A stretch of 64,000 nucleotides of DNA from Burkholderiales bacterium (GTDB lineage Bacteria; Pseudomonadota; Gammaproteobacteria; Burkholderiales; Casimicrobiaceae): NCBI GenBank assembly GCA_020851235.1, contig JADZDD010000025.1:310001-374000 (forward strand), given 5' to 3'. The position numbers were made by a program, and so were the translations under genes. Under the pieces are notes generated by a model, which worked only from the letters and a program-made list of their open reading frames with translations, ran no database searches and had not been told where the DNA came from. Of this stretch, positions 1 to 62,599 are shown piece by piece. How positions within the stretch are numbered: the stretch's first letter is position 1; every line of letters starts with the position of its first letter.

Positions 1-198
1 GACAGCGAACGGGCCGCGGACCGGGCACGCGATCCGATCCGCGCCCAGCAGCAACGGTGCGAGGCGCGCGGTGAGGCCGACGCGGCACGGTGCGCCGCGT
101 GGGACGCGGAGGCTCGCGCCGCGGCTGCCGCCGCGTTGCGCGCCGCCGACGCGGCGCCGTATCCTCTGGCGGCGTCGGTGCTCGAGGACGTCCGGTGA
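1..198 (+). CDS. C-terminal end of a thiamine-diphosphate-dependent 2-oxoacid dehydrogenase E1 alpha subunit (truncated by window start)
   Basis: Frame 1 is open from base 1 (DSERAADRARDPIRAQQQRCEARGEAD...PYPLAASVLEDVR*) with stop TGA 196-198 overlapping the GTG start of an E1 beta gene; the RDPI motif and following helix resemble E1-alpha C-termini. Confidence 0.7.
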   Translation, partial: DSERAADRARDPIRAQQQRCEARGEADAARCAAWDAEARAAAAAALRAADAAPYPLAASVLEDVR

Positions 199-1181
199 GC
201 GCGGCTGCGCCGGCGCCGCGGGTGTTCTTTCGGGAGGCGATTGGCCGGGCGCTCGCCGAGGCGATGGGGAGCGATCCGACGCTCGTGCTCTTCGGCCAGG
301 ACATCGGCCGCTTCGGTGGTGCGTATCGCGAGTTCACCGGCCTCTTCGAGCGCTTCGGCGCGCAGCGGGTGCGCGACACGCCGGTCGCCGAGGCGGCGAT
401 GATCGGCATCGGCGTCGGTGCGGCAGCCGCGGGCCTGCGCGCGCTCGTGAGCATCACCTACATGGACTTCCTGATGCTCGGGCTCGATCCGCTCGTCAAC
501 TACGCGGCGAAGGCCTGCTACAAGACCGGTGGCCAGGTCCGCGTGCCGCTCGTCGTCAAGGCGACCGCCGGTGCGCGCGGGCAGGGCGTTGCGCACTCGC
601 AGTGCATCGAAGCGTGGCTCATGAGCGTTCCCGGGCTCACCGTGGTGGCGCCGGCCACGGTCGCGGACGCCTACGGGCTCCTCAAGTCGGCATTGCGCCA
701 CGACGGCCCCGTCGTCTTCGTCGATCACAAGCGCCTGTATCCGACCGCAGGGGAGTTGCCGACCGACGCCGCGGAGGTGCCGTTCGGTCAGGCACGTGTC
801 TGTCGTCGCGGCGACGCCGTGACGCTCGTCGCCCACGCGTACATGGTGCGCGTGGCCCTTGCCGCCGCCGACGAGCTCGCGCGCGAGGGCATCGCCTGCG
901 ACGTGGTCGACCTGCGCAGTCTCGCGCCGCTCGACGTGGCCACACTCGCGGCGTCGGTGGCGCGTACCGGCGCCCTCGTCACGGTCGAGGAAGGGCAGGC
1001 GACGTGCGGTGTGGGCGCGGAAGTCGCGGCGCGGGTGCGTGAGGCGCGCGGCGGCGAGCCGTTTCGCGTCGCGCGCGTCGCCGCCTTGCCGGCGCCGGTC
1101 TCGTCGAATCCGATCCTCGAGGCTGCGTGCCTGCCGGATGCCGCGCGCGTCACCACGGCGGTGCGCACGCTGCTATCCTGA
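195..1181 (+). CDS. alpha-ketoacid dehydrogenase E1 component, beta subunit (transketolase-like)
   Basis: FREAIGRALAEAMGSDPTLVLFGQDIGRFGGAYREFTGLFERFGAQRVRDTPVAEAAMIGIGVGAA... typical PdhB/BkdB-like E1 beta; GTG at 195 overlaps the upstream stop. Confidence 0.9.
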   Translation: MSAAAPAPRVFFREAIGRALAEAMGSDPTLVLFGQDIGRFGGAYREFTGLFERFGAQRVRDTPVAEAAMIGIGVGAAAAGLRALVSITYMDFLMLGLDPLVNYAAKACYKTGGQVRVPLVVKATAGARGQGVAHSQCIEAWLMSVPGLTVVAPATVADAYGLLKSALRHDGPVVFVDHKRLYPTAGELPTDAAEVPFGQARVCRRGDAVTLVAHAYMVRVALAAADELAREGIACDVVDLRSLAPLDVATLAASVARTGALVTVEEGQATCGVGAEVAARVREARGGEPFRVARVAALPAPVSSNPILEAACLPDAARVTTAVRTLLS

Positions 1182-1209
1182 CCGTCCACCTTCCTTCCCC
1201 CTGCTGCCG

Positions 1210-1515
1210 ATGCTCTACCAGCTCGCCGTACCGACCCCGATCGAGGATGTCGAGGAACTCCGCGTCCTCGAGTGGCACGTGGCGCCGGGCCACGCCTTCG
1301 CCCCGGGCGACCTCGTGGTCGAACTGGAGACGCACAAGGCGGTGGTCGAGGTGCGGGCGGCGCGTGCCGGCATCGTGCGCAGCATCCTCGCACCGGTCGG
1401 CGATTGGCAGCGACTGGGTCGGCCGCTCGCCGTCGTGAGCGACACCGTGGACGAGCCGCTGCCGGATGCGGCCGACACCCTCGCGGTCATGCACGTCGAC
1501 TTCGAGGTGACGTAG
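1210..1515 (+). CDS. Stand-alone lipoyl-attachment domain protein (E2-type lipoyl domain only)
   Basis: ELRVLEWHVAPGHAFAPGDLVVELETHKAVVEVRAARAGIVRSILAPVGDWQRLGRPLAVV; lipoyl-domain pattern with Lys in ETHKA; about 100 aa, no catalytic domain. Confidence 0.85.
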   Translation: MLYQLAVPTPIEDVEELRVLEWHVAPGHAFAPGDLVVELETHKAVVEVRAARAGIVRSILAPVGDWQRLGRPLAVVSDTVDEPLPDAADTLAVMHVDFEVT

Positions 1516-1519
1516 GACC

Positions 1520-2899
1520 TCATCGCGTGCCGGCGCGGTGCTCGCGCTGGCGCGGCACGAATCCCGGGACGTCGCCTTCGTGCAGGATGCGCACGATCTC
1601 GTCACGCGTGGCCTGCTGCAGCACGCCGCTCGAGTGGACGCGATCGGGAATGTGCTGTCGGGCGCCGAATTCCGCAGCCAACGCATCGCCATCGACGATG
1701 CGAATGCCGTGCGAGCGCGAAAGATCGTGCAGCATTGCGTTGGTTTCGCGCGCCCGCACGGTGCCGAGCGTCTTGCCGAGCGGACGCGGGAACGGCGCGT
1801 AGCACTGCACCTGCTCGGTCCCCAGCGTCGATACCGCGTTGAGCACGAGAACCTGCGTCGTGCCGCGTGCGCGCACGGCGTCGACCAGCATCCCGAGATC
1901 GCGCGCGACGTCGGTGAGCGAGCGGCGGACCTGCTCGAAATTGGCGCGCAGCCACGCATGGAACGCGGGACCCGTCTCGCCCAGGCGGTAGCCGTGAATC
2001 TGCATCCAGTAGCCGAGCCGCTTGTGGCGCAGGAGGAGCGACGACTCGGACAGGATCGACAGCAGGATCGCGTCGGGATGGTCGGCGGTCGTCACCGCCG
2101 TGGGCGCGGTCACGGCAAGCGACTCGGTGAGCGGCGAGCGGACGAGCGCGTTGACGAGCGCGCCCAGCATCATGAAGTCACGCCCGCCCGGTACCGCGGG
2201 TCCGGCACCGAAGCTGCGGGCGATGTCCTCCACGATCGCCTGCTGCTGCGCGGGCGTGCGCGCGATCTGGTCGAGGAGGATCGGTGCCGCCGGCACCAGC
2301 GCGTCGTCGGGATAGTGCACGACGTGGGCAGGGCCCTGCACCGCGGCGAAGAGCTCGAGGAAGGCGCCGGACTCACCCCGGATGATGTTGCGCTGCTCGC
2401 AGATCCCCAAGCACGCGAGCGTGCCGAACGGTGCACCGGTGCCACCCCACCAGGCGCGAGCGCGGTCGTGCCAGCCGGTGAACAGGCCCGTGCGAACCTC
2501 GGCGATGTCGAGTGCGCGATGGCCGGCAAAGATGAGAGGGTCGAAGGCCGCTGCCGGCACGACGGTCGCCGCGTCGAGTTCGAGCGTGCCGATCGCCTCG
2601 TCCTCGCGCCAGGTGTCGTAGTACTGCATCTGATCGAGGAAGCCGCCGCGTGACGCGCCGGCGCCGCGGCGCAGGACGCCGGGTACGGTGAGCGCGAGCG
2701 CGATCTGCCAGTCGCGTTGTTCACCGGCGAGCGAACTCTTGAGAAGCGCGTCGCCGCCGCGCACCCCGACGTTGCAGTAGGCCACGACGTCTCCGGCCCG
2801 ACAGTGCGCGCCATCGGGCACGAGCCAGCGCATTCCCGACCGCTGGAGCGTGGTCGGCGCGGGCAGTACGCGACCGAGCGTGAGAGGGAGGGTGTTCAC
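1520..2899 (-). CDS. SGNH/GDSL-like hydrolase family protein of uncertain function
   Basis: 459 aa; C-terminal half has TQVLVLNAVS, LHDLSRSHGIRIVDGDAL and a DxxH (DRVHSSGVLQ) block reminiscent of SGNH hydrolases; N-terminus has a lipoyl-like MRWLVPDGAHCRAGDVVAYCNV stretch. Confidence 0.55.
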   Translation of the reverse strand: MNTLPLTLGRVLPAPTTLQRSGMRWLVPDGAHCRAGDVVAYCNVGVRGGDALLKSSLAGEQRDWQIALALTVPGVLRRGAGASRGGFLDQMQYYDTWREDEAIGTLELDAATVVPAAAFDPLIFAGHRALDIAEVRTGLFTGWHDRARAWWGGTGAPFGTLACLGICEQRNIIRGESGAFLELFAAVQGPAHVVHYPDDALVPAAPILLDQIARTPAQQQAIVEDIARSFGAGPAVPGGRDFMMLGALVNALVRSPLTESLAVTAPTAVTTADHPDAILLSILSESSLLLRHKRLGYWMQIHGYRLGETGPAFHAWLRANFEQVRRSLTDVARDLGMLVDAVRARGTTQVLVLNAVSTLGTEQVQCYAPFPRPLGKTLGTVRARETNAMLHDLSRSHGIRIVDGDALAAEFGARQHIPDRVHSSGVLQQATRDEIVRILHEGDVPGFVPRQREHRAGTR

Positions 2900-2923
2900 G
2901 ATGCGTGCCGTGCCCGGGCGTGC

Positions 2924-3277
2924 CTACCACGCGGTGTCGGGCGGGAGGATGCCGGCGACCGTCAAGCGGGCCGCACGCATGGGTTCGCCCGTCGACGCCT
3001 CGTCGGGCGTCGTGGTGACGAGGCCGATCCGCGCGCCGGGCGCGAGCTCGCTGCCTTCGGCGGCGGTCAACGCGCGCAGCACGCCGTGCTCGCGACAGAC
3101 GAGGCGAAACCACGACACCGGCGGACAGTCCTGCGCCGCGGCCTCACTGAGGTCGACGCGGACGTCGATGAGCGGCGTGCCGGGCGCCAGTGCCGTGCCC
3201 GGCGCGGTGTGCACCGCGGTGACGACACCGGTGGTCATGAGTTCGTGGAAGCGTGGCAGCTCGATGGCAAGCAGCAA
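2924..3277 (-). CDS. Small lipoyl-like (hammerhead) domain protein lacking the modification lysine
   Basis: GVVTAVHTAPGTALAPGTPLIDVRVDLS...REHGVLRALTAAEGSELAPGARIGLV follows the lipoyl-domain pattern but the DKA hairpin is replaced by VDLSEAAAQDCPPVSW. Confidence 0.55.
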   Translation of the reverse strand: MLLAIELPRFHELMTTGVVTAVHTAPGTALAPGTPLIDVRVDLSEAAAQDCPPVSWFRLVCREHGVLRALTAAEGSELAPGARIGLVTTTPDEASTGEPMRAARLTVAGILPPDTAW

Positions 3278-3345
3278 GATGAACCTCGAAAGACGTGGAA
3301 ATGCAGGGGCGCCGACGCGCTGCGGGGCGAGGTTATCATGCGCGC

Positions 3346-4635
3346 ATGAATGCCCTGGGGCTCGCCTTCGTCACCACAGCGCGGCTGCGGACGGTGCCCG
3401 AGGAGCGCATCGTCGACGGCCTCGTGCTGCGGGGGTGGATGCGCGTGGATCGCGAGCGTGATCCCGAAGGCCCGCGTCGCGTGGTGCGCGACGCGCTGGC
3501 CCGCTGGCGCGGGCTCGGTCTGCCGTCGACGCGCGATGCCCAGGGACAGCATCGCTACGACCCCGGCGAGGTCGCCATCGTCATGCGCTACGCGGGATGG
3601 AAAGGACTCGATCCATTCTGGCGCGAGTACCAGCTTCCCACGCTGCGCGCGTACGTGCTTTCGCTGCATCCGCCGGGCACGCCGCGCGACCGTACCCCCG
3701 ACCCGCGCGCGTTGCCGCCGCGACGCGTCGCGGTGTCGATCACCCGCCGCTTCGAGCCGAGGTGGATCGGCCGCAATGCCCGACTGCGCATTCCGGCTCC
3801 GGTGCACGACGCCGCGCAACGCGATCTCACGATCGCCTTCGACCCGCCGCAGGGCGCCCCTGGCAGCATGCGCGGCGCCGAAGGGTACGTCGAACTGCCG
3901 CTCACCGAGGCGCCGGTGGCGCCGGTGACGCTTGGCGTGCAGTACGCGTATGTCGCCCGTCCGTCGCCGGCGCCGGGGGGGCCGCTCTCGCTCGCGCCGG
4001 CGGAGCGTGCGCAGCACCTGTCCACGCACGAGGAGGCGATACGGGTCACGCCGCAGGTCGTCGCCGCGGCGCAAGCGCTCACCCGCGGCAGAAGTGATCC
4101 GATCGAGCGCGTGCGTGCGCTGTACGATCACGTTGCCGGGCGTCGCTGCGGCGTGGCGTTTCCCTATGCGCTCTTCGACATGGCGCCGCCGGACGGCCCG
4201 CCGCAGATGGGCTGGTACGACTGCCGGATGGTCGCCGTGCATTTCACCGCGTTGTGCCGTGCCCTCGGGATGCCGACGCGACGCATTGCCGGGTATCTGC
4301 TCTCCCCGGATGCACCGGCGTTCCATCACTGGGTCGAGGTGTGGATCGACGGCCGGGGCTGGTTTCCCGTCGATGCGCTGAGCGGTGAGGGGTCGGCGGT
4401 CCTGAGCGAACCCGCCTGGATCCCACCCCTCGGCGCGATCGACTATCGCATGAAGATCGGCGTCGTGCCGCGCGTGTTCACCGGCTCACCGGGCGTGCGC
4501 ATGCCGGAGCACTGGACGCGGCTCGAGCGCGCTGAAGGGGAGGCGATCAGCACCGAACTCGTCGATGCGACGACGCTCGAGGTCGTGTGGACGGACACGA
4601 TGCGCGTGACGCTGGGCGAGACCGTGCCCGAGTAA
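3346..4635 (+). CDS. Transglutaminase-like (TGc) domain protein
   Basis: Cys-His-Asp triad context: GWYDCRMVAVHFTALCRALGMPTRRIAGYLL...FHHWVEVWIDGRGWFPVDAL; ATG 3346. Confidence 0.8.
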   Translation: MNALGLAFVTTARLRTVPEERIVDGLVLRGWMRVDRERDPEGPRRVVRDALARWRGLGLPSTRDAQGQHRYDPGEVAIVMRYAGWKGLDPFWREYQLPTLRAYVLSLHPPGTPRDRTPDPRALPPRRVAVSITRRFEPRWIGRNARLRIPAPVHDAAQRDLTIAFDPPQGAPGSMRGAEGYVELPLTEAPVAPVTLGVQYAYVARPSPAPGGPLSLAPAERAQHLSTHEEAIRVTPQVVAAAQALTRGRSDPIERVRALYDHVAGRRCGVAFPYALFDMAPPDGPPQMGWYDCRMVAVHFTALCRALGMPTRRIAGYLLSPDAPAFHHWVEVWIDGRGWFPVDALSGEGSAVLSEPAWIPPLGAIDYRMKIGVVPRVFTGSPGVRMPEHWTRLERAEGEAISTELVDATTLEVVWTDTMRVTLGETVPE

Positions 4636-4678
4636 TCCGCGCGCTCCGCCGACCGGCTGCCGAACGTCACCTCGCATC

Positions 4679-5959
4679 ATGCTTCCGTTCGCGACCGATG
4701 CGCGTCTGCGCAACGTGCCCGAGGCGCGCATCGTCGAACACCTGGTCTTCCACGGTTGGCGACGGGCGCAGCGCCGCGCCGATCCCGACGGCGCGCGCCG
4801 TGTCGTCATCGAGGCTCTCGCGCGCTGGCGGGGGCTCGGATTGCCGGCAGCGCGCGACGGCGACGGCACGTGGCGCTACGACCCGGCCGAGGCGTTCCTT
4901 TGCATGCGCTGGGCCGGCAGGCAATTCAACGATCCGTTCTGGCGCGAGCACCACGTCGCGATCGAACGTGCCCGGGTGCACTCGTTTCATGCGGGCGAAG
5001 GCGACCCGGAGGCGCCGCCCGTGATGGCGGCACTGCCACCGCGCCGCTTCACGGTCACGCTGCGCCGCTGCTTCGATCCCGCGTACCTTGCGACGCCCGC
5101 GCGCGTGCGACTGCCGCTGCCATACCGCGTCGCGGGGCTGCGCGATGTCGAGGTCACGGTGGAAGCGCTCGACGCGGCGGGGCAGGCGCGCATCGCGCCC
5201 GGCTACGGCGAGCTTCGCCTCGTCGCGGCGCCGACAGGGCCCGTGACGCTCGTCGCGCGATCCTCGTTCGTCGCCTCGGCGTATGCGCGGCCTGGCGACG
5301 TCGTGGCGCCCAGCGCGGGCGAGCGGGCGCTCTATCTCAACCCCAGCGAGGAACTCATCCGCGTGACCCCGGCGGTGCGCACGCTCGCGGCCGGCCTCGG
5401 TGGTGGCGCGACGTCGCCGCGCGAGCGGGTGGCCCGCTTCGTCGACTACCTGATGGATGGCCTCGCGGCCGGGCCTTTTCCCTATGAATGGCTCGACGCG
5501 AAGGCGCCGCTCGACCTGCCGCGCGAGGGCGGCTGGTTCGATTGCCGACTCGGCAGCGCGCTCGTCACCGCGCTGTGCCGCGCCTGCGGCATGCCCGCAC
5601 GGCGGATGAGCGGCTATCTCCTGTATCCGGAGTCCGCCGGATATCACTGGTGGGCCGAAGTGTGGCTCGACGACGCCGGCTGGATGCCGATCGACACGTG
5701 GGTCACCGACCTGTCGGCCAATGGGGCCGATGTTGCATGGCGTCGCGTCTTCTTCGGCGAGCTCGACTATCGCCTGACGTCGGAAGTCATGCCGCAGGTC
5801 TTCAACCGCTCGCCGGGCGTTCGCGTGCCGCCGGCGTGGCGCATCCTCGAACGCGAGGTCGAAGACGGCGCCACCGAGATCGCCCTCGTCGATGCCGCGA
5901 CGGGTCGCAACGTGTGGGTGGACACGATTCGCACCGAGATGGGCGCCGTGGTCGGGTGA
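4679..5959 (+). CDS. Transglutaminase-like (TGc) domain protein, tandem paralog of the preceding gene
   Basis: GWFDCRLGSALVTALCRACGMPARRMSGYLL...YHWWAEVWLDDAGWMPIDTW; parallels the upstream gene over its full length. Confidence 0.8.
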   Translation: MLPFATDARLRNVPEARIVEHLVFHGWRRAQRRADPDGARRVVIEALARWRGLGLPAARDGDGTWRYDPAEAFLCMRWAGRQFNDPFWREHHVAIERARVHSFHAGEGDPEAPPVMAALPPRRFTVTLRRCFDPAYLATPARVRLPLPYRVAGLRDVEVTVEALDAAGQARIAPGYGELRLVAAPTGPVTLVARSSFVASAYARPGDVVAPSAGERALYLNPSEELIRVTPAVRTLAAGLGGGATSPRERVARFVDYLMDGLAAGPFPYEWLDAKAPLDLPREGGWFDCRLGSALVTALCRACGMPARRMSGYLLYPESAGYHWWAEVWLDDAGWMPIDTWVTDLSANGADVAWRRVFFGELDYRLTSEVMPQVFNRSPGVRVPPAWRILEREVEDGATEIALVDAATGRNVWVDTIRTEMGAVVG

Positions 5960-34672: not shown

Positions 34673-35998
34673 CTACAGCGTGAACGCGAGCTCCTTCACC
34701 AGCATGCCTGGCAGACGGACGCTGCCGAGTGCGCGCGCGCCGTACGTCGACGACTCCAGCATGAGCTCGGTCTCGCGGGTCAGGGCTTCGAGATTCGACC
34801 CGAGCATGCGGTAGAGCGTGTCGTCGAAGCGCAGGACGTTGACCGGGGCCACCACCCGACCGTGCTCGACCCAGAAGGTCGCAAAGCGCGTCATTCCGGT
34901 GATGCGGCCGGCCGGCCGGTCCGAATAGTTGAGGTACCACAGGTTGCCGATCGCAAGCCCCGTATCGAGCGCGGTGAGCGCGTCGGCGGCGGGCAGGTCG
35001 CCGCCTTCCAGCACGAGCGATTCGGGCGACTCGGCATCGTTGGCGCCGTTGGCGACGAGGCCGAACTCGCGCGCGGTGCGCGGACTGACGAGCGATCCGG
35101 CGAGGCGGCCGTGCTCGACGAGCGGGACCCGCGGCGGCCGCACGAAGCCGTCGTTCTGGAATGCGGGCGCCACGCCGCCTTGCGTATCCTCGACAAAGGT
35201 CACGCGCGGATCGAACGCCGCACCTTCCTGCAGGCGATCGAGCGCGCTCTGGTGCGTTTGCAGCGCGCGTCCGGAGAACGCGTCCCAGCACAGCAGGGCG
35301 GTGAGTTCCTCGAGCGCACCTGGCGCAAGATAGGCGCGGTAGCGCCCCGGCGCGAGCGTGCGCGGCGCGCGGGCGACGAGGGCGAGGCGCTCGCGTGCCT
35401 GCTGCATGCGCGCGCCGAGCTGCGCCGCGTCCCAATGGAATCCCGCGTAGGCGCTGCGCACGGCCTTGTCGGCGCCGTGATACAGGCTCCACTGCAGGTT
35501 GAAGGTTGTCGCCGTGTACGCGTTGTGCTGGCCTTCCGAATTGGCGAAGCCGCGCCACACCGGCCCCGCTGCGTAGAAGCCGACGAGATCGAGTCCGTCG
35601 GCCGCGGCGAGGATCGCATCGACAGCATCTTCGGCCGCCGGCACCGCACCGTCACGGACTTCGCGACTCGACCGCACGCCATCGGGCAGGAGCAGGAGCG
35701 CATCCTCGGCGAGGTCGGGGAGGACGGCGCGCAAGTCGGCCATCGCCGTGCGCACGGTGGCGACATCGCGTGCCACGTCTCCGGTGAGCGAGAGCGTGTG
35801 CGTCGCGTGCCGCGCGCCGTGGATGAGGCGCAGCGTGAGCGTGCGCTGCACGACACTGCCGGACTGGCGCACCCGGCCGCGATTGAAGCGGACGAAATCG
35901 GTGTCTTCGGCGGCGAAGGCGACGGTGAAGCGCTCGCCGGCCGCCCGCGCCCCGGCCACCGCCGCGACGAGCGCCGAGAAATCGTCTTCGATGCTCAC
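34673..35998 (-). CDS. TldD/PmbA family protein, PmbA/TldE-like
   Basis: DLVGFYAAGPVWRGFANSEGQHN...TGMTRFATFWVEHGRVVAPVNVLRFDDTLYRML; GTG start overlapping tldD stop. Confidence 0.82.
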   Translation of the reverse strand: MSIEDDFSALVAAVAGARAAGERFTVAFAAEDTDFVRFNRGRVRQSGSVVQRTLTLRLIHGARHATHTLSLTGDVARDVATVRTAMADLRAVLPDLAEDALLLLPDGVRSSREVRDGAVPAAEDAVDAILAAADGLDLVGFYAAGPVWRGFANSEGQHNAYTATTFNLQWSLYHGADKAVRSAYAGFHWDAAQLGARMQQARERLALVARAPRTLAPGRYRAYLAPGALEELTALLCWDAFSGRALQTHQSALDRLQEGAAFDPRVTFVEDTQGGVAPAFQNDGFVRPPRVPLVEHGRLAGSLVSPRTAREFGLVANGANDAESPESLVLEGGDLPAADALTALDTGLAIGNLWYLNYSDRPAGRITGMTRFATFWVEHGRVVAPVNVLRFDDTLYRMLGSNLEALTRETELMLESSTYGARALGSVRLPGMLVKELAFTL

Positions 35999-37425
35999 GA
36001 CTCGCCGCCGAAGACGTCGACGCCGGCGAACACGCAGGCCGGCGACGCGTGCCCGACGCGAATGATCTGCGACGGCTCGCCCTTGCCGCAGTGCGGCGTG
36101 CCGAGCACCTGCACCGTCGTCGCGTCGCCCACGCGCGCGAGGCTGCGCCAGAAGCTCGCCGAGACGCCGCGGTAGTTGGGGTTCTTCACGACGTGCCGGA
36201 TCACCCCGTGTTCGATGACGCGCGCACGCTCGCAGCCGAACTGGAACTTGTTGCGTGAGTCGTCGATCGACCAGCTGCGGTTGGTCTCCATGAGCACGCC
36301 GCGGTCGATCCCGGCGACGAGGTCGGCAAGCGAGGCGTCCTTCGGCTCGAGGTTGAGGTTCGCCATGCGGTCGATCGGCGGCCGGTTCCAGCTGTCGGCG
36401 CGACTCGCGGCGACCCCCGGCAGCCTGGCGCGCATCTGCGACGTGGCGCCGCCGAGCGGGCGGACGAGGATGCCGTCGCGGATCAGGTACGCCTTCTCGG
36501 CCGGCGTGCCTTCGTCGTCGAACGCGTAGGTCGCAAGCTCCTCGCCGCGCGTGGGGTCGAAGCTCACGTCGAGCAGCGGCGAACCGTACCGGTAACTGCC
36601 GAACATGTCGAGGGTCACGAAGCTCGTCCCGGCAAAGTTGCGCTCGTCGCCCAGGATGCGGTCGAGTTCGAGCGGGTGGCCGATCGACTCGTGGATCTGC
36701 AGGATCATCTGGTCGGGCATGAGCAGCACGTCCATCGATCCTCGCGGGCACTCGGGCGCGGTGAGGAGTTCGATCGCTTCGGCCGCGATCCGCGTCCCGG
36801 CGCCGACGAAGCCGAAGCGCGCGAGGATCTCGGCTCCGCCCTGTTGGCAGATGCCGCGGAAGCCGTCGAGCGAGCGCGACTGCGTCACCCCGCCGGCGTG
36901 CGCGGTGACGGTGAGGCGCGGCAGCAGGAAGCGGTAACGCTGCACGACGTCGCCGCCCGTGCTCGTGACGAGGCGGTGCGTGGCGGTGCGGACCTCGACG
37001 CCGGCCTCGCTGTCGACGATGCGCGGATCGCGCGTCGCGGCGGCGCACTCGGCGGCGAGGAGGTCGTACCACTCGCGGGGTGTCGGCCCGGCCACGGCGA
37101 GCGCGGGGGAAGCGTACTCGCCGCGGGCGGCGGGCCGCGGCAGCCTGCGGCTGTCGATGAGTCCCGTGTGCGCGGTGACGCGGGCCCGGGCCGCCGCGCG
37201 CTGCAACGCGGCACGGACGCCTTGCGCGCTCGTGTCGCCCGTCGCGGCGTACCCGTAGCCACCGTCGGCGTGGACGCTGGCCATGACCCCGCGGTCGGTG
37301 GTCACCGCCAACGGCAGCGGGACGTTGTGGCGGACGGCGTACTGCGAGGCCTGCTCTTCGACGAAGCGCAGCGACCAGTAGTCGGCGCGCAGGTCGACGT
37401 CGGGCAGGGGGGCGTCGAGCGGCAT
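35995..37425 (-). CDS. tldD: TldD family metallopeptidase
   Basis: HESIGHPLELDRILGDERNFAGTSF (HExxxH), LNLEPKDASLADLVAGIDRGVLMETN, PHCGKGEPSQIIRVGHASPACVF. Confidence 0.88.
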   Translation of the reverse strand: MPLDAPLPDVDLRADYWSLRFVEEQASQYAVRHNVPLPLAVTTDRGVMASVHADGGYGYAATGDTSAQGVRAALQRAAARARVTAHTGLIDSRRLPRPAARGEYASPALAVAGPTPREWYDLLAAECAAATRDPRIVDSEAGVEVRTATHRLVTSTGGDVVQRYRFLLPRLTVTAHAGGVTQSRSLDGFRGICQQGGAEILARFGFVGAGTRIAAEAIELLTAPECPRGSMDVLLMPDQMILQIHESIGHPLELDRILGDERNFAGTSFVTLDMFGSYRYGSPLLDVSFDPTRGEELATYAFDDEGTPAEKAYLIRDGILVRPLGGATSQMRARLPGVAASRADSWNRPPIDRMANLNLEPKDASLADLVAGIDRGVLMETNRSWSIDDSRNKFQFGCERARVIEHGVIRHVVKNPNYRGVSASFWRSLARVGDATTVQVLGTPHCGKGEPSQIIRVGHASPACVFAGVDVFGGES

Positions 37426-38299: not shown

Positions 38300-41062
38300 A
38301 TGAGATTTCAGCGCAACAAGGTCGCGCTTGCCCTTGGCGTAGGTGGTGTGGCGCTGGTTGCCGGTGGCATGGCAACCGCGCAGGACATCCGCGTCAACGT
38401 GACGGGCTCCAACATCAAGCGGACCGACACCGAGACCGCGGCGCCGATCCAGACGATCACCCGCGAGGACATCCAGCAGACGGGCCTGCAGACGATCCAG
38501 GAGGTGGTGCGGCAGATCACCGCGAGCAACAACGGCGGGATCGCGCCGTCGTTCACCAACGGCTTCTCCGCCTCCGGCAGCGCGGTCTCGCTGCGCGGCC
38601 TCGGCCCCAACAACACGCTGGTCCTCGTCAACGGGCGGCGTCTTGCCAATTTCGGCCTGGCCGACGACGGGCACGCCTCGTATCCCGACCTCTCGCAGAT
38701 CCCGTTCGACGCCGTCGAGCGCATCGAGGTCCTGAAGGACGGCGCCTCGGCGATCTACGGCTCGGATGCCGTGGCGGGCGTGGTCAACGTGATCCTGCGC
38801 CAGCAGTTCACCGGCGTCACGGTCATGGGCTCGGGTGGCACCAATTACAACGGCGAAGGCAACCAGTGGCGCGCCGCGATCACCGGCGGCATCGGCGATC
38901 TCACCCGGGACCGCTACAACGCCTTCATCTCGTTCGACTACCAGAAGCAGGACCCCATCGCGATGAACACCCTGCGCGATTACATGGGGACCAACAACTT
39001 CACCAGCATGGGCGGCTACGACCAGCGCCCCGGCAACCCGTACAGCGGCTTTGGCACCACGAGCATGCTGGGCAACGTGCGTCCGGTCGCCGCCGCCAAC
39101 CCGAATGGAAGTCCCGGGGCCTACCAGACGCTACCCGGCACGTGCACCTCGGGTCCGGTCAGCGTCGGCCCCGCCGGCCAGCCCTTCTGCATCTGGGAGG
39201 TCAAGGACTGGGTGGACTTGCAGCCCAAGATCGAGCGCGCCAACGTCTACGCGCGCGGCGCGTACAACTTCACCGACTCGATCCAGGGCTACACCGAACT
39301 CGCGTACTTCTCGGTCAAGACCGATACGCGCAACACGCCGACCGGGACCCGCGCCAACTGGTTCGATCCGTCGACGGTGTCGATCAAGTCGTCGGTCAAC
39401 GTCTACCTGCCGGTGGGCCACCCCGACAATCCGTTCTCGGCCAACAACCAGGTCGCACGCCTGTACTACGTCGACGGCGCGCTGGGCGGTCGCAACACCG
39501 AGTACAAGACCGATACGCAGCGCTACCTCGCCGGGGTCAAGGGCAGCAACGCGGGGTGGGACTGGGACTTGGCCGGCCTGTACATCCGCAGCGACACCGA
39601 CGTCACGCGCCAGAATTTCTACAGCTACGATCGGCTGCAGCAAGGCCTGGCCGGCACGGGCCCGTTCGGCTACTACCGGATTGGCGCCGCAGCGGGGGCG
39701 AACAATCCCGGCATCTACGACTGGATCGCGCCGGACCGCTCGTGGAGCATCAAGTCCGAGAACACGAACTTCGACGCCAAGGCGTCACGCGACCTCATGA
39801 AGCTCTCCGGCGGGCAGTTGGCGCTGGCGCTGGGCTACGAGTTCCGTCGCGAGGAGCTGTCGAATCCGGGGGCACCCGGCACCGACACCGGCAACGTCGT
39901 CGGCCTGGGTTATTCGGCGGCGTTCGGCTCGCGCAACGTCAACGCGCTCTTCGCCGAGTTGTACGCGCCGGTCCTGAAGAACCTCGAACTCACCGCCGCG
40001 GTGCGCTTCGACGATTATTCGGACGTCGGCAACACGACCAACCCGAAGATCGGCGCCAAGTGGACGGTGATCCCGCAGGTGGTGCTGCGCGGCACGTACG
40101 CGACCGCGTTCCGGGCCCCGGGCCTGTACGAGACGTCGACGGCGAACGCATCGGCCGGCTATACCGTGGCGCGTGACCCCATCCGCTGTCCGGTCACCGG
40201 CCTTGCCGCCGACTGCTCGAACCAGGTGCTCGGCATCAACACCGGCAACCCGTACATCAAGCCCGAGAAGTCGGACACGTGGACCGTCGGCGTCATCGTC
40301 GAGCCGATGCCGGGCTTGTCGGGGACCCTGGACTACTGGAACATCGACACCAAGGACCAGATCACGATCGGCAGCGTCCAGGGCGTGCTGAACAACCCGG
40401 GGAACTTCCCGGCGGCGACCGTCGGCCGCGATACCAACAACCTGCCGGGCATCCCCAACTCCGGCACGGTGCTGTACGTGTCGACGCCGTACCAGAATGC
40501 CAATACGGTGAAGACCGACGGTATCGACCTCGACATCCTCGGTCGTTACAACGCGCCCAACAACTGGGGCACGTTCAGCGCCGAGTTCCAGTGGACGCAC
40601 ATCTTCAAGTTCAGCCAGACGTTGGGCGGCATCGAGTACGAGTACCAGGGCACCAACGGCAACTACGACGTCTCGTCGGCGCAGGGCACGCCAAAGGATC
40701 GCTGGAACCTGATCCTCGGCTGGGCCCGTGGCCCGTGGAACGTGACGGGAACGGTGCGCTACGTCGCGGGCTACGACGAGATCCCATGGCGCGACCTCGC
40801 GGTTCCGGAGAACTGCCTGTACATCTGGCGGGACGACCAGACGAGCTGCTCGGTCGATTCGTTCACGACGTTCGACCTTTCGGCCTCGTACAAGGGGTTC
40901 AAGAACTGGGAGATCTTCGGGTCGATCGTCAATCTCTTCAACGAGAAGGCGCCGTTCGCGCCGGCCGCGGCGTACGGTAACGTCAACTTCAACTACAACT
41001 ACTCGTTCACCGGCGCCACCGGTACGCAGTTCAACGCGGGCGTGCGCTACACGTTCAAGTAG
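38300..41062 (+). CDS. TonB-dependent receptor
   Basis: Signal peptide; PIQTITREDIQQTG, VSLRGLGPNNTLVLVNGRR, IPFDAVERIEVLKDGASAIYGSDAVAGVVNVIL plug; terminal aromatic-ending beta strand GVRYTFK. Confidence 0.94.
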   Translation: MRFQRNKVALALGVGGVALVAGGMATAQDIRVNVTGSNIKRTDTETAAPIQTITREDIQQTGLQTIQEVVRQITASNNGGIAPSFTNGFSASGSAVSLRGLGPNNTLVLVNGRRLANFGLADDGHASYPDLSQIPFDAVERIEVLKDGASAIYGSDAVAGVVNVILRQQFTGVTVMGSGGTNYNGEGNQWRAAITGGIGDLTRDRYNAFISFDYQKQDPIAMNTLRDYMGTNNFTSMGGYDQRPGNPYSGFGTTSMLGNVRPVAAANPNGSPGAYQTLPGTCTSGPVSVGPAGQPFCIWEVKDWVDLQPKIERANVYARGAYNFTDSIQGYTELAYFSVKTDTRNTPTGTRANWFDPSTVSIKSSVNVYLPVGHPDNPFSANNQVARLYYVDGALGGRNTEYKTDTQRYLAGVKGSNAGWDWDLAGLYIRSDTDVTRQNFYSYDRLQQGLAGTGPFGYYRIGAAAGANNPGIYDWIAPDRSWSIKSENTNFDAKASRDLMKLSGGQLALALGYEFRREELSNPGAPGTDTGNVVGLGYSAAFGSRNVNALFAELYAPVLKNLELTAAVRFDDYSDVGNTTNPKIGAKWTVIPQVVLRGTYATAFRAPGLYETSTANASAGYTVARDPIRCPVTGLAADCSNQVLGINTGNPYIKPEKSDTWTVGVIVEPMPGLSGTLDYWNIDTKDQITIGSVQGVLNNPGNFPAATVGRDTNNLPGIPNSGTVLYVSTPYQNANTVKTDGIDLDILGRYNAPNNWGTFSAEFQWTHIFKFSQTLGGIEYEYQGTNGNYDVSSAQGTPKDRWNLILGWARGPWNVTGTVRYVAGYDEIPWRDLAVPENCLYIWRDDQTSCSVDSFTTFDLSASYKGFKNWEIFGSIVNLFNEKAPFAPAAAYGNVNFNYNYSFTGATGTQFNAGVRYTFK

Positions 41063-41198: not shown

Positions 41199-43934
41199 AT
41201 GCGTTTCACACGGACGAGGGTTGCGGCAACGTTGGGGGTGGCAGGATTCGCGCTCCTCGGCGTGGGGACCGCCGCGGCGCAGGACATTCGCGTCAACGTC
41301 ACCGGCACCAACATCAAGCGGACCGATACCGAAACCGCGGCGCCGATCGAGGTCATCACCCGCGAGGACATCCAGCAGACCGGCTTCAATACGATCTCCG
41401 ACGTGGTGCGCGCGATCACCGCCAACAACAATGGCACCATCGCCAACCAGTGGAGCTACGGCTTTCCTTCGGGCGGGGCCGGGGTTTCGCTGCGCGGGTT
41501 GGGCTCGAACAACACGCTGCTGCTCCTCAACGGCCGGCGCCTTGCGCAGTACGGCCTCGCCGACGACGGGCACTATTCGTTCACCGACTTGAACCAGATT
41601 CCGTTCGATGCGGTCGAGCGCATCGAGATCCTGAAGGACGGCGCCTCGGCGATCTACGGCTCCGACGCCGTCGCCGGTGTCGTCAACATCATCCTGCGCC
41701 AGCAGTTCACCGGGTTCACCGCCAACGGCACCTTCGGCACCTCGTACAAGGGTGACGGCGACACCTTTCGCGCCGGCCTGACCGGGGGCATCGGCGATCT
41801 CACCCGGGATCGCTACAACGCCTACCTCACGCTCGATTACCAGAAGCAAAAGGCGATGCCGTCGACCAACCGGCGCGACTACATCGCCACCACCAACCTC
41901 GAGTTCATGGGGCTGCCCGATACGCGTCCCGGCAATCCGCCGCTCGGCTGGGGCACGACGAGCCCGCTTGGCAACGTGCGGCCGATCTCGCCGTCGGGCG
42001 CGCTCGGCGCGTACCAGTCGCTGCCCGGCGCCTGCCCGCCGGGTAGCGAGTCCGACGGCTTTTGCAAGTGGGAGCCCAAGGATTACACCGACATCCAGCC
42101 CGAGACCGAGAAGATCAATGTCTTCGCGCGGGGGTCGTACAACTTCACCGATTCGATCACGGGCTACGCCGAGCTCTCCTGGTTCCAGTCGAAGGTCGAC
42201 ACCACGATCTCGCCCAATCCGCTGCGCTCGACCTGGGCCAAGGTCTCGGATTACTCGATCGTGAGTTCATTGAGCACGATCAATCTGCCCGCCACGCACC
42301 CGGACAATCCGTTCGGCGCGCAGGGGCTCGCCGCCCGGCTGTACTACGTTCCCACCGACATCGGCGGGCGCACGACGAACACGACGAGCGATACGCAGCG
42401 CTACCTCGCCGGCGTCAAGGGCACCACCGCGGGCTGGGACTGGGATATCGGTGCGATGTACATCCGCTCCGACCTCGAGTATCGGCTCGGCAACTACGTC
42501 AACTATGCGAACGTCCTCTCGGCGCTGAACGGCCAGGGCGGCTTCGGCTACTACCGGATCGGCGCCAGTGCGAATCTCAACAATCCGGGCATCTACGGTT
42601 TCATCGCGCCGTCGGTGGTGTCCGACATCCGGACCGAGAACACGCAGATCGACGCCAAGGCGAGCCGCGATCTCATGAAGCTCGACGGTGGCCAGCTGGC
42701 GTTGGCCGTCGGCTACGAGTTCCGGCGCGAGGAGGTGAACAATCCCGGCGTTCCGGGCACCTTCAACGGCGAGATCATCGGCCTGGGTTACGCGGGGGGT
42801 GTCGGCTCGCGTAACGTCAATGCGGTGTACGCCGAGCTCTATGCGCCGGTGCTGAAGAACCTCGAGCTCACCGCCGCGGTCCGTTACGACCACTATTCCG
42901 ACTACGGCTCGAACACCGTGCCGAAGCTCGGCGTGAAGTGGACGGTCGTCCCGCAACTCGTCCTGCGCGGGACGTATGCGGAGGGCTTCCGTGCGCCCGG
43001 CTTGTACGAGAACGGCAACAGTTCCGTGGCAGCCTACACCTCGTACGTGGATCCGGTTCGCTGCCCGGTCACCGACTCGCCGGCCGACTGCGGCGCGGGC
43101 AACGTGGTGGCGATCACGTCGGGCAATCCCCTCATCGAATCGGAGAAGTCGACCAACTGGACGGTGGGTCTCGTCTTCGAGCCGGTGCCGGCGTTCAACA
43201 TGACGCTCGACTACTGGAACGTGGAGACGAAGAACCAGATCACCGGCGGCGACCCGCAGCTCATCATCGACAATCCGGGCGCCTTCCCGTCCGCGGTCGT
43301 GATCCGCGACCAGACCGACGCCCTGCCCGGCATCCCGAATTCGGGAACGATCGTCGCGGTGACCGTGCCGTTCGAGAACGCCGACAAGACGAAGACCGAC
43401 GGCATCGACGTGTCCGCACGCTATCGCTGGGTGAACGCGAACTACGGCAATTTCACCGCGTCGATCGACTACACGCACATCCGCAGCTTCGAGCGCACGT
43501 TCCAGAACGGAATCTCTGCCGAGTACGCCGGCACGCACGGGCCGACGTCGCTGTCGAGCGCCGCCGGGATGCCGAAGGACAAGTTCAACGTGACGCTCGC
43601 CTGGGAGAAGGGGCCGTGGAACGTCGCCGGCATCGTCCGCTACGTGGGGCCGATGGACGACGTCGAATCGAAGGAGGACCCGACCTGTCTCACCTCGTCG
43701 TCCCTGGGCGTCGATGGCTACTGCACGGTCGCGTCGTTCACGACCCTCGACCTGTCGGCTTCCTATAAAGGCTTCAAGAACTGGGAGATCTTCGGGTCGG
43801 TGATCAACGTGTTCAACCGCATCGCGCCGTTCGACTACACGGCGGGCTACGGCATCTACAACTACAATTTCAACTACGCGCTGCCCGGGGCGACCGGCAC
43901 CATGTTCAACCTGGGAGCACGCTACACGTTCTGA
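41199..43934 (+). CDS. TonB-dependent receptor, tandem paralog
   Basis: Plug and barrel closely parallel the upstream receptor (DIRVNVTGTNIKRTDTETAAPIEVITREDIQQTG...; ends GARYTF). Confidence 0.94.
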   Translation: MRFTRTRVAATLGVAGFALLGVGTAAAQDIRVNVTGTNIKRTDTETAAPIEVITREDIQQTGFNTISDVVRAITANNNGTIANQWSYGFPSGGAGVSLRGLGSNNTLLLLNGRRLAQYGLADDGHYSFTDLNQIPFDAVERIEILKDGASAIYGSDAVAGVVNIILRQQFTGFTANGTFGTSYKGDGDTFRAGLTGGIGDLTRDRYNAYLTLDYQKQKAMPSTNRRDYIATTNLEFMGLPDTRPGNPPLGWGTTSPLGNVRPISPSGALGAYQSLPGACPPGSESDGFCKWEPKDYTDIQPETEKINVFARGSYNFTDSITGYAELSWFQSKVDTTISPNPLRSTWAKVSDYSIVSSLSTINLPATHPDNPFGAQGLAARLYYVPTDIGGRTTNTTSDTQRYLAGVKGTTAGWDWDIGAMYIRSDLEYRLGNYVNYANVLSALNGQGGFGYYRIGASANLNNPGIYGFIAPSVVSDIRTENTQIDAKASRDLMKLDGGQLALAVGYEFRREEVNNPGVPGTFNGEIIGLGYAGGVGSRNVNAVYAELYAPVLKNLELTAAVRYDHYSDYGSNTVPKLGVKWTVVPQLVLRGTYAEGFRAPGLYENGNSSVAAYTSYVDPVRCPVTDSPADCGAGNVVAITSGNPLIESEKSTNWTVGLVFEPVPAFNMTLDYWNVETKNQITGGDPQLIIDNPGAFPSAVVIRDQTDALPGIPNSGTIVAVTVPFENADKTKTDGIDVSARYRWVNANYGNFTASIDYTHIRSFERTFQNGISAEYAGTHGPTSLSSAAGMPKDKFNVTLAWEKGPWNVAGIVRYVGPMDDVESKEDPTCLTSSSLGVDGYCTVASFTTLDLSASYKGFKNWEIFGSVINVFNRIAPFDYTAGYGIYNYNFNYALPGATGTMFNLGARYTF

Positions 43935-46669: not shown

Positions 46670-47338
46670 ATGGATTACGCGAGACAGCAGCGCGACCCGG
46701 GGCGACACCTGCTTGGGATCGGTTTCGTCATCCTCGTCCACGTTCTCGTCATCTGGGCGCTGCTTTCGGGCCTGGGCCAGGGCGTGATCCAGATCATCAA
46801 GAAGCCGCTCAACGCGACGATCATCGAGGAGATCAAGCTCCCGCCGCCGCCGCCGCCGCCCCCGCCGCCGCCGCCGAAGAAGATCATCGAGCCGCCGAAG
46901 GTGCAGCCGCCCATCGAGACCTACGTTCCGCCGCCCGACGTTCCCGTGCCGGCCCCGGTCGAGGCGCCGCCGATCTCCGTGGTGACGCCGGTCGCGCCGA
47001 CGCAGCCGCACGTGATCGCGCCGCCACCGCCGGTGGCAGCACCGCCGGCACCGCCGGCGCCACCGAAGCCGGCGATTCGCCGTGGCATCGTCAAGATCGC
47101 CGGTGACGATCCGACGTATCCGCGCGAGGCGATCCGCAGCGGCGTCGACAAGGGGCGCGTGGTCGCCCGGCTGCAGATCGACGAGAGCGGCAACGTGACC
47201 GAGGTCAAGATCATCGTCTCCGAGCCGCCGCGGGTCTTCGACAAGGCCGTTCGCGCTGCGCTCGAGACGTGGAAGTTCAAGCCCGAGAACGAAAAATACG
47301 TGGGCGAGGTGGAGATCAACTTCAATCTGAAGGATTAG
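46670..47338 (+). CDS. tonB: Energy transducer TonB
   Basis: N-terminal TM, Pro-rich linker, C-terminal TYPREAIRSGVDKGRVVARLQIDESGNVTEVKIIVSEPPRVFDKAVRAALETWKFKP. Confidence 0.92.
   Translation: MDYARQQRDPGRHLLGIGFVILVHVLVIWALLSGLGQGVIQIIKKPLNATIIEEIKLPPPPPPPPPPPPKKIIEPPKVQPPIETYVPPPDVPVPAPVEAPPISVVTPVAPTQPHVIAPPPPVAAPPAPPAPPKPAIRRGIVKIAGDDPTYPREAIRSGVDKGRVVARLQIDESGNVTEVKIIVSEPPRVFDKAVRAALETWKFKPENEKYVGEVEINFNLKD
46841..46876 (+). repeat. (CCG)n-type microsatellite encoding 12 consecutive prolines in TonB
   Basis: ccgccgccgccgccgccgcccccgccgccgccgccg. Confidence 0.9.
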
Positions 47339-49416
47339 TGGACGGCATCGTCGACCTCGCGCGGCGCGCCGCCGTTCACCATCGCGCCGGCGAGCTTGCG
47401 CAGGCGATCGCGCTCTACGACGCGATCCTCGCGCGCGCGCCGCACGACGCGCACGCGCTGCACCATTCGGGTGTGGCGTTCTTCCAGCAGGGCGACTACG
47501 CGAAGGCGCTCGACCGGCTGCGTGCCTCGGTCAACACCGACGGGTCGAATGCCGACGCGTGGGCGAACCTGGGCCTCCTCCTGACGACGATCGGGCATCA
47601 TCGCGCTGCGGTCGAGACCTACGAGCGCGCCGTCGCGCTCGATCCCGCGCCGGAGATCCTCGTCAACATGGCGGCGGCACAGCTCGCCTGGGCGCAGCCG
47701 ATCGCAGCGGAGGCAACGGCGCGGCGCGTCCTCGCGCAGGACGCCACCCACGCGAAGGCCTGGTTCACGCTGGCGCTCGCCTTGCAGCCGCAAGGCCGGA
47801 TGCTCGAAGCGCTCGATGCCGCGACCCGGGCCACGGCGCTCGCACCCGGCGAAGAAGGCTACGCCGGGCTCAAGGCGCAACTCGAAACCGGGATCGGCGC
47901 CCCGGAGAAAGCGCGGGCCACACTCGACAAGGCGCTCCTGCGCGCGCCGATGTCGCGCGCCTTGCGCTTCGAACTCGCGAGCCTCCTCGAGTACAGGCTC
48001 GGCGCGCCCGAAGCGGCGCTCGCCCACTACGAGCAGGTCGTCGCGCTCGAGCCGCGCCACGGCCCGGCGCTGTCGCAACTCATCTTCCTGCGCGGACGGC
48101 TCGCCGACTGGCGCGATCGCGACGCGTGGGTGCGCCGCTACCGCGAGGCGGTGGCGGCGGGTGCGAGTGCGTTGTCGCCCTTCGCGTTGCTCGCGCTGCC
48201 GTCGACGCGGGCCGAGCAGCGCGCCTGCGCGCGCCACTGGACCGCCGCGCTCGCGGGCGAGCGCGCCCGGCCTTCGCTCGCCTCACGCGCGCGCCTGCGG
48301 ATCGGCTACCTGTCGGCCGACCTGCATACGCATGCGACGGCGTACCTCGCCGCCGGCCTCTTCGAGCAGCACGATCGGCGACACTTCGAGGTCATCGCCT
48401 ACTCGACCGGCCCCGACGACCGCTCGCCGATGCGCTCGCGGCTCGCGCGGGCGTTCGATCGCTTCGTCGACCTGTCCCACGCGCCGCCGGCCGCGGTGGC
48501 GCAGGCGATTCGCGACGATGGCGTGGACGTGCTCGTCGATCTCAAGGGACACACGCAGGACGCCACGCCGATCGTGCTCGCGCATCGACCGGCGCCGATC
48601 CAGGTGCACTACCTCGGTTATCCCGGCACGCTCGAGGGCGGCCTTTGCGACTACCTCATCGGCGATGCGATCGTCACGCCGCCGGAGCACGCCGCCGATT
48701 ACGCCGAAGCGATCGTCACGCTGCCCGGGTCGTACCAGGTCAACGACCGCACGCGACCGATCGCCGACACGCCGTCGCGCGACGCGGTCGGACTGCCGCC
48801 CTTCGGGCTGGTCTTTGCCTGCTTCAACCAGACGTACAAGATCAATCCCCAGGTCTTCGACGCGTGGGCAGGCATCCTGCGCGCGATCGATGGCTCGGTG
48901 CTGTGGCTGCTCGCCCGGCGTGCCGACGAGCCGGCGGTCGCGCACCTGCGGCGTGAGGCGACGGCCCGTGGCGTCGATCCGGCACGGCTCGTCTTCGCCT
49001 TGCATCGTCCCAACGCCGACTACCTCGCGCTGTACCGCCATGCCGATCTCTTCCTCGACACCTGGCCGTACAACGCGCATACCACCGCCAGCGACGCGTT
49101 GTGGGCGGGCTGTCCCGTGCTCACGATGCGGGGCGAGACCTTCGCGGGCCGTGTCGCCGCGAGCCTCGTCACCGCGGTGGGCCTGCCCGAACTCGTCACG
49201 GGATCGGTCGCCGAATACGTCGCGCGCGCGGTCTCGCTCGCGCGCGATCCCGGCGAACGGGAGCGCCTGCGCACGCAGCTCGCGGGTCCCGGGCGCGCGT
49301 CGCCGCTCTTCGACACGACGGCGACCACACGTGCGCTCGAGCGCGCGTACCGCGTGATGGTCGAGCAGCATCGCCGCGGCGTGCGCGAGGCCTTTACCGT
49401 CCCGCCGACGCCGTGA
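47338..49416 (+). CDS. TPR-repeat protein with O-GlcNAc transferase/SPINDLY-type (GT41-like) domain
   Basis: N-terminal TPRs (ALYDAILARAPHDAHALHHSGVAFFQQGDYAKALDRL); C-terminal RLRIGYLSADLHTHATAYLAAGLFEQHDRRHFEVIAYS...GHTQDATPIVLAHRPAPIQVHYLGYPGTLEG...LFLDTWPYNAHTTASDALWAGCPVLTMRGETFAGRVAASL. Confidence 0.9.
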   Translation: MDGIVDLARRAAVHHRAGELAQAIALYDAILARAPHDAHALHHSGVAFFQQGDYAKALDRLRASVNTDGSNADAWANLGLLLTTIGHHRAAVETYERAVALDPAPEILVNMAAAQLAWAQPIAAEATARRVLAQDATHAKAWFTLALALQPQGRMLEALDAATRATALAPGEEGYAGLKAQLETGIGAPEKARATLDKALLRAPMSRALRFELASLLEYRLGAPEAALAHYEQVVALEPRHGPALSQLIFLRGRLADWRDRDAWVRRYREAVAAGASALSPFALLALPSTRAEQRACARHWTAALAGERARPSLASRARLRIGYLSADLHTHATAYLAAGLFEQHDRRHFEVIAYSTGPDDRSPMRSRLARAFDRFVDLSHAPPAAVAQAIRDDGVDVLVDLKGHTQDATPIVLAHRPAPIQVHYLGYPGTLEGGLCDYLIGDAIVTPPEHAADYAEAIVTLPGSYQVNDRTRPIADTPSRDAVGLPPFGLVFACFNQTYKINPQVFDAWAGILRAIDGSVLWLLARRADEPAVAHLRREATARGVDPARLVFALHRPNADYLALYRHADLFLDTWPYNAHTTASDALWAGCPVLTMRGETFAGRVAASLVTAVGLPELVTGSVAEYVARAVSLARDPGERERLRTQLAGPGRASPLFDTTATTRALERAYRVMVEQHRRGVREAFTVPPTP

Positions 49417-62068: not shown

Positions 62069-62599
62069 ATGCTTCGCTTCTTCGTCGTCTTCCTGCTCTT
62101 GCTCGCGGCGCTCTTCGCGATCGAGCTGACGCCGTGGGCGCAGACCTACGTCGTGGTTCCGTGGACCGACGCGCTCGCCCGCATGTCGACGGCGATCGTC
62201 ACGCTCTTCGATCCCAACGTGGTTGCCTCGGGCAAGGTGATCCGCAGCACGACGAGCGACTTCGCCGTCTCGATCGAGGCCGGCTGCAACGGCGTCGAGG
62301 CGACGATCGTCCTCATCGCGGCGATGCTCGCGTTTCCCGCGCCGTGGCGCCACCGCATCGTCGGGCTTGGCATCGGGTTCGTCGCGGTGCAGGCGCTCAA
62401 CGTCGTGCGCATCATCAGCCTCTTCTACCTGGGCCAGTGGAGCTACGCCGTCTTCGAATGGGCGCATCTCTACGTGTGGCAGGCGCTCATCATGCTCGAC
62501 GTGCTCGTGGTGTGGCTGCTTTGGGTGCGTCGCGTGCCGCGTCCGGAAGGCGGCGCGATGCCACCGCCGGCGTCACCGCCCGCACTCGCCCCGGGCTGA
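62069..62599 (+). CDS. xrtH: Exosortase H
   Basis: Membrane protein with exosortase Cys/Arg/His signature: SIEAGCNGVEATIVLIAAMLAFP...NVVRIISLFYLGQWSYAVFEWAHLYVWQALIML. Confidence 0.88.
   Translation: MLRFFVVFLLLLAALFAIELTPWAQTYVVVPWTDALARMSTAIVTLFDPNVVASGKVIRSTTSDFAVSIEAGCNGVEATIVLIAAMLAFPAPWRHRIVGLGIGFVAVQALNVVRIISLFYLGQWSYAVFEWAHLYVWQALIMLDVLVVWLLWVRRVPRPEGGAMPPPASPPALAPG

Follow-up and report, generated by a model that had tools for sequence, protein, structure and literature searches.

A conserved bacterial gene module uniting E1 subunits and a stand-alone lipoyl carrier with SGNH-like, transglutaminase-like and glycosyltransferase genes, with no E2 or E3 nearby

We analysed a stretch of 64,000 nucleotides from a Burkholderiales bacterium (assembly GCA_020851235.1, contig JADZDD010000025.1; G000:C25:310001-374000), hereafter the window, and found that its first genes belong to a rare bacterial module of 8 to 10 genes that is strictly conserved as a set. 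The set combines the alpha and beta E1 subunits of a 2-oxoacid dehydrogenase and a stand-alone lipoyl carrier with SGNH-like proteins, a lysine-less lipoyl-like protein, glycosyltransferases and transglutaminase-like proteins. Tentatively, with a probability of about 40%, we propose that it constitutes a self-contained cytosolic pathway in which E1 would load an acyl group onto the carrier and cysteine enzymes, rather than an E2 acyltransferase, would pass it to a glycosylated acceptor.

A conserved gene set without E2 or E3

The E1-alpha, E1-beta and lipoyl carrier genes (window 1-1515) are the tail of an operon that opens upstream of the window with the SGNH-fold protein S1; its missing 5′ part was read from the same contig. 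Overlapping start and stop codons join S1, a family 2 glycosyltransferase (GT2a), a small SGNH-like protein and E1-alpha, and beyond S1 lie a ZIP-type transporter and then phaC (polyhydroxyalkanoate synthase), both named from sequence alone. Neither an E2 core nor an E3 motif occurs at the window's locus or at 22 further loci (23 loci inspected), and the four E2 cores of this genome (PF00198) are on other contigs, namely C6, C33, C10 and C22. A preliminary description, made from the letters of the window, had noted that no E2 or E3 follows the E1 and lipoyl genes and had named an E2/E3 pair just upstream as the finding that would speak against it; the observation holds, and the upstream stretch has no such pair either.

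Profile searches of the loci recovered a recurrent layout, in which the operon runs S1, GT2a, small SGNH protein, E1-alpha, E1-beta and lipoyl carrier. Facing it are the 459-amino-acid (aa) protein S459 and a 117-aa lipoyl-like protein, with a transglutaminase-like gene and often a second glycosyltransferase (GT2b) adjoining; both glycosyltransferases belong to family GT2 by Pfam. Scanning 84,980 species genomes with the S459 family returned 17 loci, to which whole-genome searches added more; the synteny is shared with about 20 other genomes, and the 23 loci span three phyla. Between-genome distances of the module families correlate (r 0.62-0.99). One genome (G462) carries S459 and the 117-aa protein at 2.97 Mb and the lipoyl carrier, small SGNH protein, GT2a, S1, GT2b and transglutaminase-like protein at a second site at 3.17 Mb. 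Since all core genes are retained despite being split over sites 0.2 Mb apart, we take the set to be a functional unit and not a product of hitch-hiking. The preliminary description had named missing co-occurrence of these genes in other genomes as a further finding that would speak against it; their co-occurrence proved strong.

Hosts are found among the Alpha-, Beta- and Gammaproteobacteria, Verrucomicrobiota and Acidobacteriota, and include Novosphingobium lentum, Gluconacetobacter tumulisoli, Methylocella silvestris, Caulobacter sp. and Falsiroseomonas selenitidurans as well as Verrucomicrobia and Acidobacteriaceae bins. Within these groups the module is rare and patchy, a pattern that fits horizontal transfer: full-length S459 is present in 4 of 61 relatives (the window's genome included) and, within Gluconacetobacter's family, in 10 of 300 genomes; of 301 genomes around Novosphingobium, 2 have a convincing 117-aa protein; and of 399 genomes of the phylum only the window's genome has a convincing S1. 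The copies in the Acidobacteriaceae bin and in a gammaproteobacterial bin from similar peat share 84-95% identity, so mis-binning or a recent transfer may account for one of them. A viral or plasmid origin was ruled out, S459 having no relatives in IMG/VR or PLSDB, and so was a defence island, as PADLOC models match none of ten module proteins. A comparison covering genes of at least 60 aa yielded no conserved extra small gene family that might encode the precursor of a ribosomally synthesised and post-translationally modified peptide, shorter peptides being outside its scope. Three weak matches were dropped: one locus (L020, genome G005) has no module genes, a second (G394) owes its lipoyl domain to an ordinary complex, and a third (G926) matches SGNH only in part and lies in a cluster of sialic-acid type.

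In Gluconacetobacter-type genomes (L036:4575-8114, L054:6581-9930, L056:2-2006) the module adjoins a UbiA-HAD protein and a large membrane protein, and the first of these neighbourhoods additionally has an SMR-like protein. Together these neighbours resemble polyprenyl-phosphate sugar export cassettes.

The lipoyl carrier and the cysteine-bearing proteins

The lipoyl lysine of the carrier, K43 (in ETHKA), is invariant (23/23). Genome G035 has two carrier genes within one module copy (L018:2038-2343 and L018:7087-7392). The 117-aa protein, which has no Pfam match of its own, belongs to a family homologous to the module's carrier (hhalign probability 98.2%, E 3e-14), and its structure model (predicted local distance difference test, pLDDT, 91) matches lipoyl and biotinyl domains. 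In the model, strands 35-42 and 54-61 flank a loop containing Cys51-Pro52-Pro53, which occupies the site of the carrier's lipoyl lysine; the hairpin is 11 residues longer and holds no modifiable lysine, and Cys-Pro-Pro is invariant in 22 of 22 sequences. The 117-aa protein is a lipoyl domain with an invariant Cys-Pro-Pro loop in place of the lysine hairpin.

S459 likewise has no Pfam match itself, and one homologue matches Lipase_GDSL_2 weakly. Its model (pLDDT 86) was matched by Foldseek to SGNH esterases and thioesterases over most of the protein, the closest folds including TesA and 4rw0, and, over 116 columns, to an E2 protein's lipoyl domain; no meaningful sequence relatives of S459 or S1 were found in the PDB. 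The GDS of block I reads G-x-C, with Cys167 starting the helix after strand 159-164, and the Asp419 and His422 of block V (DxxH) are, like Cys167, invariant in 23 of 23 copies. The N-terminal barrel appears lipoyl-like and lysine-less in the model, so that the most fitting description of S459, as modelled, is an SGNH fold in which a cysteine sits where the nucleophile would be, joined to a lipoyl-like domain that lacks the lysine.

The SGNH part of S459 has two homologues within the module, S1 and the small SGNH protein. In both, the canonical nucleophile is not conserved; because other polar residues are conserved, their sequences suggest repurposing rather than decay. The small SGNH protein is 280-300 aa long instead of 210 in some lineages, owing to an Arg-rich C-terminal tail of about 80 aa (L034:6637-7539, L033:13605-14471, L036:1051-1911). 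A TPR-like (tetratricopeptide repeat) protein with a weak S1-like SGNH stretch (L069:9456-10424) lies inside a sialic/legionaminic-acid-type sugar cluster.

E1 subunits and transglutaminase-like proteins

PF00676 (E1_dh) was found in the E1-alpha family, and E1-alpha retains the GDG...N-N motif for thiamine diphosphate (ThDP) and Mg as well as the "HS" histidine of the phosphorylation loop. E1-beta retains the catalytic Glu (PVAE) and His (AHSQ). Nearly all E1-beta copies read SITYMDF (AITYMDF in two) where pyruvate dehydrogenase (PDH) reads EFMTFNF, so the substrate preference of the module E1 may differ from that of PDH. E1-beta forms a module-specific clade, with 65-69% identity between carriers of the module and about 40% to housekeeping paralogs.

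This dedicated E1 is not essential to the module, because four alphaproteobacterial genomes (L031, L032, L035, G462) have every other module gene and lack E1-alpha and E1-beta; at these loci the lipoyl gene lies directly 3′ of the small SGNH gene, whose reading frame is interrupted in L035. The module E1-beta clade was not found elsewhere in genomes G061-G063, where only paralogs of about 40% identity occur, and the same result was obtained for G064, whose locus (L030) ends with its contig after S459. The sole alpha2-beta2 E1 found in G061, a draft bin, is the housekeeping PDH adjoining its E2, and any acyl group that the carrier receives in this genome would most likely be acetyl, derived from pyruvate.

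The Cys-His-Asp of the transglutaminase-like proteins is retained in 20 of 20 copies, and all copies examined sit in module context. Their PDB relatives, 6g49 and 3isr, cover the core domain only, and no family could be assigned to the N-terminal part. Most members of all module families have no membrane segments.

Proposed pathway and alternative explanations

In the proposed pathway, LipA/LipB or LplA would lipoylate K43 of the carrier, and E1-alpha/beta would decarboxylate a 2-oxoacid, perhaps pyruvate or a small relative, and reductively acylate the lipoyl group, a step that the housekeeping PDH E1 would perform in genomes without the module E1. Docked through its lipoyl-like domain, S459 would stand in for E2 by accepting the acyl group at Cys167, with the Cys-Pro-Pro protein as its partner or as a second thiol carrier. 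One or both glycosyltransferases would build a sugar-containing acceptor, for which S1 and the small SGNH protein may act as acceptor-binding or repurposed subunits; the acyl group would pass to this acceptor, and the transglutaminase-like Cys-His-Asp enzyme would make or exchange an amide or ester bond. Housekeeping E3 would re-oxidise the dihydrolipoyl group; either a small glycoconjugate bearing the acyl group or a modified protein may result.

The suggestion of the preliminary description that an SGNH- or transglutaminase-fold enzyme replaces E2 gains support from S459, in which a lipoyl-like domain accompanies an invariant Cys-Asp-His at the SGNH active-site positions, and from the Cys-His-Asp retained by the transglutaminase-like proteins; the acyl transfer in it is still conjecture. 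Its view of a dedicated module rather than a PDH complex is strengthened by the lack of E2 and E3 and by the conserved co-occurrence, and has to be loosened for the dedicated E1, which four genomes do without.

Several points weigh against the pathway. Acylation, substrate, product and the order of steps are all what we infer from the genes and their residues. The N-terminal barrel of S459 is not significant as a lipoyl homologue by profile comparison, its likeness coming from the fold match, and the spatial triad of Cys, Asp and His in S459 is predicted from motif order and secondary structure. Any role of S1 and the small SGNH protein is putative, given sequences that lack the canonical nucleophile, and a second glycosyltransferase was not found near the window's locus. 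Finally, four alphaproteobacterial genomes have the module without E1, so the carrier may have a main role other than being acylated by E1.

Because E1 can be lost, a redox or thiol relay is the main rival, although we consider it unlikely. The lipoyl dithiol would here reduce Cys51 in the 117-aa protein and Cys167 in S459 or exchange with them, while reducing equivalents would be all that E1 or housekeeping E3 supplies and acyl groups would arise as a by-product. The invariance of the lipoyl lysine and both cysteines where E1 is dispensable agrees with such a relay, as does the finding that complete loci always have the lipoyl protein together with both cysteine proteins. However, E1, where present, retains its catalytic residues and its dedicated orthologous clade, and the Asp-x-x-His beside the Cys position of S459 is typical of acyl chemistry, which the transglutaminase triad suggests as well.

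Less probable again is that E1 and the carrier feed housekeeping E2 and E3 in trans, as an auxiliary 2-oxoacid dehydrogenase branch that yields acyl-CoA, with the neighbouring genes forming a separate glycan pathway. Free lipoyl domains are known E2 substrates, and four E2 cores are available elsewhere in the genome; however, the lipoyl gene stays with the glycosyltransferase, SGNH and transglutaminase-like genes even where the module E1 is missing, and lipoyl-like character is also found in S459 and the 117-aa protein. We think it improbable, more so than either of these, that S459 is a thioesterase that hydrolyses acyl-lipoyl to the free acid or clears a toxic 2-oxoacid or aldehyde. Its nearest folds are indeed SGNH esterases and thioesterases such as TesA, but hydrolysis leaves the two glycosyltransferases, the transglutaminase-like proteins and the two nucleophile-less SGNH proteins of the conserved unit unexplained, and the change from Ser to Cys would favour transfer. 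A degraded or ordinary locus for PDH, branched-chain 2-oxoacid dehydrogenase (BCKDH) or acetoin dehydrogenase beside unrelated genes, which the PDH-like E1 subunits might recall, is very hard to reconcile with intact genes, a module-specific E1 clade and long-range synteny over 23 loci lacking E2 and E3; an ordinary PDH/BCKDH operon was ruled out by this synteny, by the upstream stretch and by E2 cores placed on other contigs.

If the relay from the lipoyl carrier to a glycosylated acceptor is real, it would give lipoyl chemistry a place in specialised biosynthesis as well and hint at a glycoconjugate or protein modification not yet described. The residues C167, the cysteine of Cys-Pro-Pro, K43 and the transglutaminase Cys offer concrete points at which it can be tested directly.

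Gene positions and other features of the window

The preliminary description had placed the end of E1-alpha, E1-beta, the lipoyl protein, the 459-aa and 117-aa proteins and two transglutaminase-like proteins, and all coordinates agree with ours (Table 1). It had also called the 459-aa protein SGNH-like, to which family homologues and the structure model lend support, and the 117-aa protein a second, lysine-less lipoyl-like protein, as profile comparison and the model confirm. The genes it saw were correct; half of the module, with the glycosyltransferases and two more SGNH-like proteins, lay outside its view. The second transglutaminase-like protein is 45% identical to the first and is a tandem duplicate within this lineage.

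Table 1 Module genes at the window's locus; positions without a prefix are those of the window
Feature	Position	Strand	Remarks
S1, SGNH-fold protein	L003:10767-11576	+	First operon gene
GT2 glycosyltransferase (GT2a)	L003:11573-12646	+	GT2 by Pfam in family
Small SGNH-like protein	L003:12643-13275	+	Directly 5′ of E1-alpha
E1-alpha, C-terminus	1-198	+	Full gene L003:13272-14198, begins upstream of window
E1-beta	195-1181	+	Pfam Transket_pyr and Transketolase_C
Stand-alone lipoyl carrier, 101 aa	1210-1515	+	Biotin_lipoyl, E 3e-13; lipoyl lysine K43 (ETHKA)
S459, 459 aa	1520-2899	-	SGNH-like via family homologues and model
117-aa lipoyl-like protein	2924-3277	-	Profile comparison and model
Transglutaminase-like protein 1	3346-4635	+	Pfam Transglut_core; Cys-His-Asp retained
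Transglutaminase-like protein 2	4679-5959	+	Pfam Transglut_core

Elsewhere in the window, a TldD/PmbA-type metallopeptidase pair (34673-37425) was recognised from the Pfam match of its second member, the first being assigned by adjacency, and two tandem TonB-dependent receptors (38348-41062 and 41232-43934) are 60% identical over their whole length. A TPR protein with a GT41 domain, of the bacterial O-GlcNAc-transferase-like type (47338-49416), is encoded directly 3′ of two ExbD-like proteins and a TonB-like protein. An Exosortase_EpsH-type protein (62069-62599) is just 176 aa long and matches profile positions 104-252 only.

Comparison with known systems

To our knowledge, lipoyl groups are known almost only from the complexes of central metabolism, where E2 is the obligatory acyltransferase. 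With these 2-oxoacid dehydrogenase complexes (PDH, BCKDH, acetoin dehydrogenase) the module shares E1-alpha, E1-beta, a lipoyl domain and catalytic residues, the sequences indicating a ThDP motif, the catalytic Glu and His and a putatively modifiable lipoyl lysine; they encode an E2 core and E3, whereas the module has neither at any copy.

Its other parts resemble known folds and depart from them. S459 and S1, and probably the small protein as well, have the fold of the SGNH/GDSL hydrolases (TesA, 4rw0), and S459 also has their block-V Asp-x-x-His; the hydrolases have the Ser of GDS, whereas S459 has an invariant Cys and an extra lipoyl-like domain, and the nucleophile of S1 and the small protein is not conserved. 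The 101-aa and 117-aa proteins share the barrel-sandwich fold of glycine cleavage H-like and biotinyl/lipoyl carriers, from which the 117-aa protein differs by a Cys-Pro-Pro in a longer hairpin with no lysine there. With bacterial transglutaminase-like proteins (6g49, 3isr) the module has Transglut_core and its Cys-His-Asp in common, a likeness confined to the core domain.

In the open-access literature, with subscription papers outside our scope, we found no description of this gene combination; a flagellin-glycan paper using the word "lipoyl" proved irrelevant, as it means fatty acyl groups there. An acyl relay that bypasses E2, running from an E1-fed lipoyl carrier through the Cys-SGNH protein S459 and the Cys-Pro-Pro protein onto a glycosylated acceptor and ending in a transglutaminase-type bond, would be a new class of system, a reading to which we give somewhat less than even odds.

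The glycolicacyl pathway (QncN/QncL/QncM, and SclQ1-4 of scleric acid) comes closest in design: E1-type subunits, a lipoyl-acyltransferase and an acyl carrier protein (ACP) make a C2 unit (PMC6335953). Like the module, it diverts a split E1-type ThDP enzyme and a lipoyl domain from central metabolism to biosynthesis. It has an E2-type acyltransferase on its lipoyl protein and a handover to ACP, whereas the 101-aa carrier of the module has no such domain and none of the module's called genes was recognised as encoding an ACP; for these reasons the module is not a member of the Qnc/Scl type. In their place the module has S459 and the Cys-Pro-Pro lipoyl-like protein along with transglutaminase-like proteins and glycosyltransferases.

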